DNA of 64,000 nt from Proteinivorax hydrogeniformans (GTDB lineage Bacteria > Bacillota > Proteinivoracia > Proteinivoracales > Proteinivoracaceae). Below, piece after piece: positions 19,977 to 24,176 of this stretch. The notes below the pieces were generated by a model. The model saw nothing but the letters and a program-made list of their open reading frames with translations. It made no database searches and had not been told where the DNA came from. The translations under genes and the position numbers were made by a program. The stretch is from positions 1,054,001-1,118,000 of the forward strand of contig NZ_CP159485.1 of the NCBI RefSeq assembly GCF_040515995.1, read 5' to 3'. Every line of letters starts with the position of its first letter. Within the stretch, counting starts at the first letter, position 1.

Positions 19977-19985
19977 AAAGGTATA

Positions 19986-20014
19986 TTGACATGTGATATA
20001 GAAGTGTACATAAC
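19986..20014 (+). promoter_or_regulatory. Candidate promoter of the alpha-CTD/sigma-4 fusion gene
   Basis: A perfect TTGACA followed after 17 bases by CATAAC. The -10 is weak; the A/T-only palindrome immediately upstream strengthens the case for a regulated promoter. Confidence 0.45.
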
Positions 20015-20079
20015 AAAAGATTCTGTTATAAAAGAGAAATAATAATGTAACGAAGGTGTAAATTGAGGGGGGAAGATTA

Positions 20080-21873
20080 GTGAGTGAGTTTTTTGAATCA
20101 AACTTATTGTTTAAACCTATCTCGAATTTGGGGCTTTCTGCTAGAGCCCAGCGTGTTCTTCACGAAAGGGACATAAAAACCTTAGGGCAACTTTCATTGA
20201 TCGATGAAAAGGAACTACGACAAACGACTAACTGCGGAGAGCATACTATAAGGGAGATTAAGCAGATTCTAAAAAGGCAGTTAGGGCAAGGATTACACTT
20301 AAACTGCGATACTGAAATTCAAGAACTGGGGCTTTCTCCTAGATCTAAAAATTGCTTAAAAAACTTTGGAGTAAGAAATGTGAGGGACTTATTAAACATT
20401 TCTGTAATGGACCTTTTATCCATAAAAAATCTTGGCGCAAAATCTGCAGAAGAAATAATGTACAAAATTAAGTTTATACTAGACGAGAACGAGAAAGCTG
20501 CAGCATGCAAAGAAAAGTATTGGGGGCAGCCAGTGGGGGAAGGGAGCAGCATTGAACTGACCTTGTCAAAACTAATTGGCCAATATTCTGTTAAGTTATT
20601 GCCTATTGACAATGAGTTGTTAGACATTTGCAAAAAAGAAGATATACAAAATGTGTCACAGTTAGTAGATTTAGATGAGTTTGATCTTTATAACTCATAT
20701 AAAGGAAGACTATTCAACAAACTATTTGAAACTAACAGTAATCTATTAGGTCAGCTTAGCTTTTTAAGCGGGTCAATTGATAAAATGACTTTAAATTACC
20801 GAGAAGTTGAAAAACTTTTACATGATCTTAGGGAAAAGCTAGTTGCTCAAGATCCCGACTGGTGGTTAAAGCAGATGTTTAAAGGGATTGATGATAGAGA
20901 ATATAGGATGATTAGCCGTTATTATGGATTAAATGGTGACGTATTTACCCTTCAAGATATAGGGAATGAATACGGACTGACCAGGGCTAGAATTCAACAG
21001 ATCATAAAGAAACTTAAACATAAAATAATGTCTAACCTTTACTTTGAAAATATCTATTTTATCTCGTGGCTCCATGTTTACTCCTTAGTTCAAGGCGGAG
21101 TGCTTACCCACGACCATTTTGCGAACGAATTAAGTACGTACTTAAAACTCCCATATATTAATGTAGGAAATTTTACGTCCATGCTTTTAGATATAGACCC
21201 TATGTACCAACAATTGAACTATGATGTGTGGGGAATGGTTGTGTTACCTGTTGAACACTACAGCGATCTTGTGCAAACAGGAGTAGATATTCTACAAAAA
21301 GGGAGCTATAAGGAGCAAGAGTTGTTAGAAGAGCTAAAAGATAGAGAAATTTACCTGACTTTAAACGAAAAACAAACTCCAATTAGAGGGATGTTAGAAA
21401 ACTTCATACCAGCTTGCTTAGCTTCCGCTAACTGCTTTGAAATTAATGAAAATGGCAAGGTAAACTTTGAAGAACGTGAAGGTACTAAAGTTCATACAAT
21501 AATAAACATTTTGCGTAGTGAAGGAAGGGCTTTACATTATAAGGAGATAATTAAAAAGGCAAATCAGCAAAAGGAAGAGATCACAGTCCAATATGCTAGA
21601 GCTATTTTAGCTAATCATAAAGATGTTTTTGCTAGAGTTGGAAGAGGAATATATGGGCTAGTTGAATGGGGGATTAAAGAGTACCCTCATATTTCCGATT
21701 ACATTTATGATATCTTAAAAAAGCACAAAGATCCTATGTACTATAAAAAAATAGCCAGGATTGTTGCTCAAACACACTTTACAAAGGAACAGACAATATA
21801 TAATGCCTTAACTCAAGATCCACGTTTTGAAAGATATAAGTCTGGGTATTATGCATTGAAAAAGACGCCATAA
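20080..21873 (+). CDS. Fused alpha-CTD / sigma region 4 / HARE-HTH-like protein
   Basis: 597 residues, cytosolic, no catalytic motif. Residues about 10-72 and 76-137 are two helix-hairpin-helix copies like the RNA polymerase alpha C-terminal domain (LGLSARAQRVLHERDIKTLGQL; LGLSPRSKNCLKNFGVRNV). About 268-322 resembles sigma-70 region 4, with REYRMISRYYGLNG and the recognition helix LTRARIQQIIKKLKHKI. About 467-530 (KVHTIINILRSEGRALHYKEI to GRGIYGLVEWG) and 535-595 look like two winged HARE-HTH domains, the type in RNA polymerase delta. No sigma region 2 is visible, so it is not a complete sigma factor. GTG start with GAGGGGGGAA 7 bases upstream. The domains are fairly clear; a role as transcription or DNA-structure regulator is inferred. 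Confidence 0.8.
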   Translation: MSEFFESNLLFKPISNLGLSARAQRVLHERDIKTLGQLSLIDEKELRQTTNCGEHTIREIKQILKRQLGQGLHLNCDTEIQELGLSPRSKNCLKNFGVRNVRDLLNISVMDLLSIKNLGAKSAEEIMYKIKFILDENEKAAACKEKYWGQPVGEGSSIELTLSKLIGQYSVKLLPIDNELLDICKKEDIQNVSQLVDLDEFDLYNSYKGRLFNKLFETNSNLLGQLSFLSGSIDKMTLNYREVEKLLHDLREKLVAQDPDWWLKQMFKGIDDREYRMISRYYGLNGDVFTLQDIGNEYGLTRARIQQIIKKLKHKIMSNLYFENIYFISWLHVYSLVQGGVLTHDHFANELSTYLKLPYINVGNFTSMLLDIDPMYQQLNYDVWGMVVLPVEHYSDLVQTGVDILQKGSYKEQELLEELKDREIYLTLNEKQTPIRGMLENFIPACLASANCFEINENGKVNFEEREGTKVHTIINILRSEGRALHYKEIIKKANQQKEEITVQYARAILANHKDVFARVGRGIYGLVEWGIKEYPHISDYIYDILKKHKDPMYYKKIARIVAQTHFTKEQTIYNALTQDPRFERYKSGYYALKKTP

Positions 21874-21933: not shown

Positions 21934-23172
21934 TTAGGTTCTAGCTGGTAAAATGATTGTAAAAGTAGTTCCTTTATCACTACTTTTACAATAGATTTGG
22001 CCTTTGTACTGTTCGACAACTTGTTTACTAACCGATAATCCTAATCCAGTGCCCCCATGTTTAGTGGAATAAAACGGGGCAAAAATTTGTTCAGCAATTT
22101 TTTCCGGAATGCCGGGACCGGTATCTGACACGTTTACAATTATTTGAAGGTTTTTCAGCTTGCAGGTAACTTTTAGGGTGCCTCCATCTTCCATAGCTTC
22201 TATAGAGTTTTGGATTATATTAAGAAACACTTGCCTAAACTGAACGGCATCTCCTGTAATATGTGGGATTGTTTTATCAATATTTACGGCTATAGATATG
22301 TTATTCCTTTCAATAACTGACGTTAAAGCCGATAAGACATCCTGTAAAATATCAGAAAGCTTACATTCGTTTGCTTTATCTTTTTGCGCTTTTGAAAAGT
22401 ATATAGAGTTTTTCAATATACTATGTGCTCTATCTAGCTCTTCTAAAATAAAATTTACATAAACGGTGTTATTTTTGTCCACTATCTTTGTTTGCAAAAG
22501 CTGTGTAAAGCCTCTAATAGAGGTTAGTATATTTTTAATCTCATGAGCAAAGCTGGCGAACATTTGACTAAACCGCTCTTGAACTTCTTTCACATCATGA
22601 CTGTTAGCTAATGTTTCGCTCATTATATCGCTTGCTAGACACAGGATTTGCTCTAGATTGGGGAAATTTAGTTCTTTAGGCACCGCAATTAAAATGGCTC
22701 CATAAAAAACCTTGCTAGTTTTTCCTATTATAGGTACAGCGACGAACGTCCAATTAAAAACCTTTTGTTCTTTAAACTCTAGCTCTTCAAAAACAAAACA
22801 CTGTCTATCTTTAATAAGTTTTTTAATGGGACTTGTGCTGCTAGGTTTGCTCCAGTCTTCTCCAATTGCTAAGGTTGAATCAGCAATTGGAAAGGAAGAA
22901 CAACGATGTTTTGACAGCAAATGACCTGATTGATTAAAAACGAGACAAGCAACCTGCTTTTGGACGATAGAGTCTAAATTGTCAAATAAAATTTTAGAAA
23001 CAGCAATCAATTTTGAGTGATAGCAAATAAGGTCCTGTTTCTTTTCCTTAGAAAGGTTTTTGACAGAATTAACTTTAAAGGAAACCTTGATTTGGTTATC
23101 AATTAGTTCCATTAAAACACCCACTTCCAAGACTGCTTTTTGCCCAAACCCATTTAGGTTTAAATTCGCCAA
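21934..23172 (-). CDS. Soluble sensor histidine kinase
   Basis: Up to 412 residues with no membrane helix. Residues about 40-190 look like a GAF or PAS-like sensory domain; HisKA has FASFAHEIKNILTSIRGF with the phosphoacceptor His near 212; the HATPase_c part carries NIIQNSIEAM, DTGPGIP and GGTGLGLSVSKQV. This HEIKNxLT type resembles sporulation KinA-E or NtrB kinases. The start is unclear: a TTG at 23172 has no good site, and an ATG at 23112 (MELIDNQ) with GGAAG/GGGTG upstream is equally likely. No response regulator gene is adjacent, so it is an orphan, possibly feeding the sporulation phosphorelay. Confidence 0.87.
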   Translation of the reverse strand: MANLNLNGFGQKAVLEVGVLMELIDNQIKVSFKVNSVKNLSKEKKQDLICYHSKLIAVSKILFDNLDSIVQKQVACLVFNQSGHLLSKHRCSSFPIADSTLAIGEDWSKPSSTSPIKKLIKDRQCFVFEELEFKEQKVFNWTFVAVPIIGKTSKVFYGAILIAVPKELNFPNLEQILCLASDIMSETLANSHDVKEVQERFSQMFASFAHEIKNILTSIRGFTQLLQTKIVDKNNTVYVNFILEELDRAHSILKNSIYFSKAQKDKANECKLSDILQDVLSALTSVIERNNISIAVNIDKTIPHITGDAVQFRQVFLNIIQNSIEAMEDGGTLKVTCKLKNLQIIVNVSDTGPGIPEKIAEQIFAPFYSTKHGGTGLGLSVSKQVVEQYKGQIYCKSSDKGTTFTIILPART

Positions 23173-23371
23173 ATAATTTAGAAATCCTGCAAAAAGTTTG
23201 AAAAAATTAGTGAAACATTTAACTATTTTGACAAAGCTTTAGTTATCTTTACTGTAAATACTAGTAATATCGGCAAAATAATAGAAATTTTACTATTTAG
23301 ATTGCCAAAATAGTTGACCGAGCCACTAATTGTTGGTATCCTAGAGTTAACCAAGCGTGGAGGTGTGTTTT

Positions 23372-24078: not shown

Positions 24079-24176
24079 TATATATATTTATTTTTAAAGC
24101 TTTTGAAATATATTAAAAAAATATTAATAACTTATGAAAAATAAAGGTATTTTAAATAATGTATAGAATAAAATAG

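Follow-up and report, generated by a model that had tools for sequence, protein, structure and literature searches.

Fusions of HARE domains with the helix-hairpin-helix C-terminal domain of the RNA polymerase α subunit (RpoA-CTD) and a sigma-type helix-turn-helix were reportedly described by Aravind and Iyer in Cell Cycle in 2012 (11:119), are said to be covered by Pfam PF05066, and are said to be predicted inhibitors of polymerase binding at start sites. Searches of the full-text literature yielded no functional study of such fusions. Here we analyze a protein of Proteinivorax hydrogeniformans that contains all three domain types; the altered recognition helix of its sigma region 4, the loss of the equivalent of E261 in its α-CTD and its link to sigma-H come from the present analysis.

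PglW of type 2 BREX contains an α-CTD-like domain followed by winged helices (PMC12839542), as does the protein analyzed here, which PglW models match from its second α-CTD through sigma region 4. However, PglW additionally possesses a NERD nuclease, kinases and iSTAND and belongs to a defense operon, whereas our protein lacks these features, with no kinase or nuclease domain detected by Pfam. The δ subunit of RNA polymerase (RpoE) shares with it the HARE-type winged helix, which in δ attaches to the polymerase surface (PMC7749165). Unlike our protein, δ is small and has a single HARE domain and a disordered acidic tail, without α-CTD or sigma region 4.

Domain architecture

The gene occupies positions 20080..21873 (+ strand) of the window, the stretch of 64,000 nucleotides that was analyzed, and encodes 597 amino acids from a GTG start. 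It is present in one copy in this genome, and the reading frame is open in all orthologs. Pfam recognizes two stretches of RNA_pol_A_CTD (2.3e-31), Sigma70_r4 at residues 269-311 (2.2e-6) and two stretches of HARE-HTH (6.6e-10), all above the cut-offs, and sequence comparison with the PDB returns RpoA C-terminal domains and sigma region 4. The first-pass annotation, which had read two α-CTD-like units, a sigma-4-like middle helix-turn-helix without sigma region 2, and two C-terminal winged modules, is thus borne out, the winged modules being HARE-HTH 1 (21478..21669, + strand, residues 467-530) and HARE-HTH 2 (21685..21861, + strand, residues 536-594). There is no Pfam match to sigma region 2 or 3, to the α N-terminal domain responsible for dimerization and assembly, or to polymerase-derived domains beyond these three types, and a genuine RpoA is encoded elsewhere in the genome. 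Given the absence of region 2, identification of the protein as a sigma-70 factor was rejected.

The first 140 residues had also been proposed to be α-CTD-like, and this holds for both units. Unit 2 (20308..20472, + strand, residues 77-131) is recognized by Pfam and by PDB sequence matches; unit 1 (20116..20277, + strand, residues ~13-66) matches the RpoA-CTD profile weakly when the window copy is used alone (E = 0.0027) and clearly when the family is represented by a profile (hhalign E values of 2e-8 and 7e-11). Residues ~171-225 (20590..20754, + strand) align with the fourth α-CTD of homologs from another Bacillota family (f11, discussed below), with a profile match that is not significant for this segment alone; this suggestive alignment may reflect a decayed third unit. 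Sigma region 4 (20872..21027, + strand, residues ~265-316) is followed by a region (21043..21477, + strand, residues ~322-466) that is conserved as far as the f11 family and shows no significant match to Pfam or to PDB sequences and profiles, and no winged-helix support, but may hold two further winged helices. The domain folds rest on sequence profiles because AlphaFold models built without an alignment were unusable (pLDDT of 37 for the whole protein and 43 for residues 318-597).

In the E. coli numbering, the DNA-contact set of the α-CTD consists of R265, N268, C269, N294, G296, K298, S299 and E302, and E261 is the sigma-contact residue. All eight DNA-contact residues of the second α-CTD are retained in all five family orthologs (R88, N91, C92, N117, G119, K121, S122 and E125 in the window copy), and the E261 equivalent is replaced by G, H or S in each of them, so that the expected DNA-binding surface appears to be kept and the sigma-docking surface not. 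In the first α-CTD, the equivalents of R265, N294, G296 and E302 are kept and those of N268 and K298 are lost; this unit is entirely absent from the ortholog in G003 (L034 8849-10456). The recognition helix of sigma region 4 reads TRARIQQI, compared to TRERIRQI in the genome's own sigma-A, and E585 and R588 are replaced by A and Q in 5/5 orthologs, which makes canonical -35 reading unlikely in this family. We read this pattern as DNA binding retained and sigma docking lost in the second α-CTD, and -35 specificity changed in sigma region 4. The earlier suggestion that the protein binds promoter or UP-element DNA gains residue-level support from α-CTD2.

Conservation peaks in the HARE pair, with 61% invariant columns in HARE-HTH 1, the most conserved segment of all, and 56% in HARE-HTH 2, against 32-45% for the α-CTD and sigma-4 domains. 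For this reason, the pair is the best candidate for an essential contact, either with DNA or with polymerase.

Conservation and gene neighborhood

An ortholog is found in single copy and at a fixed position in 5/5 sequenced genomes of the family, which represent three genera; the other four proteins are 72%, 48%, 49% and 49% identical to the window copy. The dN/dS ratio of the gene is 0.10 (G003/G004), compared to 0.13 for queG, 0.14 for the kinase gene and 0.09 for murI, and the gene is under purifying selection like its neighbors. Judging from these genomes, it is a vertically inherited single-copy core gene of its family.

The gene order in the family is queG, the gene itself, a convergent gene for a soluble histidine kinase, a MarR gene, murI and the glutamate mutase genes, with no defense genes among the neighbors examined; the genes for phosphate uptake that precede queG keep their position in G001 and G004 but not in G002 and G003. 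In the window, the convergent kinase gene (21934-23172, - strand), which may encode a sporulation-type sensor kinase, has a perfect sigma-H-type site (23162-23190, - strand) that overlaps its first possible start; translation of the kinase probably begins at the ATG near 23112. A sigma-H-type site conserved in the five family genomes is also located upstream of murI (24143-24172, + strand).

Promoter region and the sigma-H motif

Alignment of the five family upstream regions revealed a conserved block, AAAAGGATATTTAC-N7-TATAGAA, located ~80-100 nt before the start. In the window, the corresponding promoter-like block is AAAGGTATA-N12-ATAGAAGTG (19977..20006, + strand), which agrees at 12 of 15 positions with the sigma-H consensus RNAGGAWWW / RNNGAATWW (PMC8510167). 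This score is no better than those of shuffled sequences; the four other family genomes (G001-G004) carry a site in the same place that matches at 14-15 of 15 positions, with shuffle P values of 0.003-0.03 in G001-G003. The G004 score assumes a TTG start at L035:6198, the probable start by homology with G003, and falls to 13/15 when the slice is set on the longer open reading frame. The sigma-H-type promoter thus appears to have decayed in the window's own copy. Sites matching at 13-15 of 15 positions accompany the adjacent kinase and murI genes in all five family genomes, and other shared genes show lower scores at scattered positions. A scan for a standard sigma-A promoter upstream of the gene gave no more matches than shuffled sequences.

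Directly 3' of the promoter-like block lies an inverted repeat, ATAACA-N8-TGTTAT (20010..20029, + strand), which is also present in G001. A search for a corresponding operator regulon found one other occurrence in the genome, no more than in the control, and the repeat is possibly a private, autoregulatory operator.

Genome-wide, the sigma-H motif occurs at 63 sites compared to 17 for the reversed control; 57 of the 63 lie on the strand expected of genes for their half of the chromosome, and ~20 of the 26 sites inspected are intergenic and near a gene start, including those of ftsE and spoVG, the latter a classical sigma-H gene. The motif is therefore meaningful in this genome, and each of the ten genomes of the two families has matches to the sigma-H and Spo0A models. 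Among other sigma genes of this genome, two neighboring short frames of 128 and 69 aa at G000:C1:1845257-1845698 encode sigma-2 and sigma-4, probably as remnants of a broken ECF sigma gene, and an ECF-like sigma factor of 544 aa that carries a long C-terminal extension is found at G000:C1:449821-450261 (L081).

Homologs outside the family

A search of 399 genomes of the phylum with the family profile (E <= 1e-15) identified, in addition to the family's own five genomes, five f11 genomes (G019, G065, G103, G137 and G166), G050 (in the HARE region) and G120 (an RpoA-sized open reading frame). The f11 homologs have a collinear arrangement of α-CTD, sigma region 4, the conserved region and HARE. 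They differ from the window protein in possessing four α-CTDs, one HARE domain (weakly or not recognized by Pfam) and a sigma-4 recognition helix with canonical residues. In 5/5 cases, a sigma-H-like site, AGGAAT-N11/12-GAAAT, is present upstream (14/15; P 0.003-0.03), with GAAAT, not GAAT, at -10. The neighbors differ from those in the window family, the f11 gene adjoining feoB and a DUF4855/dnaE pair; the conserved DUF4855 protein (L036 2538-4217 and its f11 relatives) is always encoded directly 3' of the homolog and is possibly its functional partner. Longer proteins combining α-CTD with sigma region 4 were found in G015, G037 and G020, and the architecture is not unique to the window family.

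More distant relatives are encoded in defense-like contexts. A 1051-aa sigma-4/HARE protein heads an Ssp/BREX-like operon in G050 (L037 1930-13766) together with a BrxP-like PAPS reductase, SspB and SspC, and a sigma-4 protein annotated as rpoD heads a methylase/DUF4007 operon on the Abditibacteriota plasmid AP024153 (L083 26-6720). Since the gene analyzed here is a chromosomal core gene, the same chassis appears to serve in both settings. Scans of genome contigs with the whole protein and with query A1 gave no relatives, and viral contigs gave no match with A1; with query A3, viral contigs gave mostly ordinary sigma-factor C-termini, and the matches in phage and plasmid collections were mostly to RpoA-CTD.

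Predicted function

We propose that the protein binds DNA and either competes with RNA polymerase at promoters or modulates it there, and that it is produced as cells enter stationary phase, a prediction from sequence to which we give about an even chance. Under this model, the second α-CTD would bind AT-rich, UP-element-like upstream DNA through the minor groove, sigma region 4, its specificity altered, would sit in a neighboring major groove, and further contacts with DNA or polymerase would come from the tandem HARE domains. Lacking sigma region 2 and the α N-terminal domain, the protein is not expected to open a promoter or to join the core enzyme, so that its most likely action is to compete with RNA polymerase, or to remodel it, at a subset of promoters; it could activate as well as inhibit. 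If the gene is read by sigma-H, as the promoters of its relatives suggest, the protein would act at the stationary-phase transition or at the start of sporulation. A more far-reaching version, in which the protein is a sigma-H-controlled decoy that, built from the promoter-contact domains of RNA polymerase itself, occupies upstream promoter DNA genome-wide at sporulation onset and redirects transcription, seems unlikely to us.

The main rival explanation takes the HARE pair to dock on RNA polymerase, which it may do instead of binding DNA given that the HARE-type domain of δ binds the polymerase surface; the α-CTD and sigma-4 domains would then tether the enzyme to particular promoters or release it from them. 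The conservation of the HARE pair, the highest in the protein, fits such a δ-like factor, as does the apparent lack of a separate δ in this genome, in which the only HARE matches are those in the 597-aa protein, although a missing δ may be ordinary for this group. Because the protein has no long acidic tail of the δ type, matches the NCBIfam δ model only partially and below the cut-off (24.9 bits against 42), and HARE domains are DNA-binding modules in other proteins as well, we hold this explanation to be possible but rather less than probable.

A role as an anti-phage or foreign-DNA sensor, in which the chassis would recognize DNA that is modified or invading, a task proposed for PglW of BREX, draws on the PglW match and on the relatives at the head of the G050 and AP024153 operons; with a conserved neighborhood devoid of adjoining defense genes and with the slow evolution and vertical inheritance of the gene, which are unlike those of defense genes, it appears improbable. 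Bacillus subtilis SigO/RsoA provides a precedent for a split sigma factor, and a protein with sigma region 4 and without region 2 could likewise supply one half while a separate protein supplies region 2. There is, however, no evident stand-alone partner, as the sigma-2 open reading frames of this genome also carry sigma region 4, with the exception of sigH and the broken-looking 128-aa ECF gene, and the residues that read the -35 element are lost in the family, which renders this arrangement highly improbable.

Thus, the kind of fusion was already known, and what is new is the finding that the gene belongs to the single-copy core of its family and keeps its position there, the residue pattern of its second α-CTD and sigma region 4, and the sigma-H-type promoter. 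The proposed promoter-directed role is directly testable in that the gene is part of the vertically inherited core, with a recognizable promoter and intact DNA-contact residues. Given that BREX and Ssp-like defense systems also use this chassis, its function in this family would inform those systems as well.
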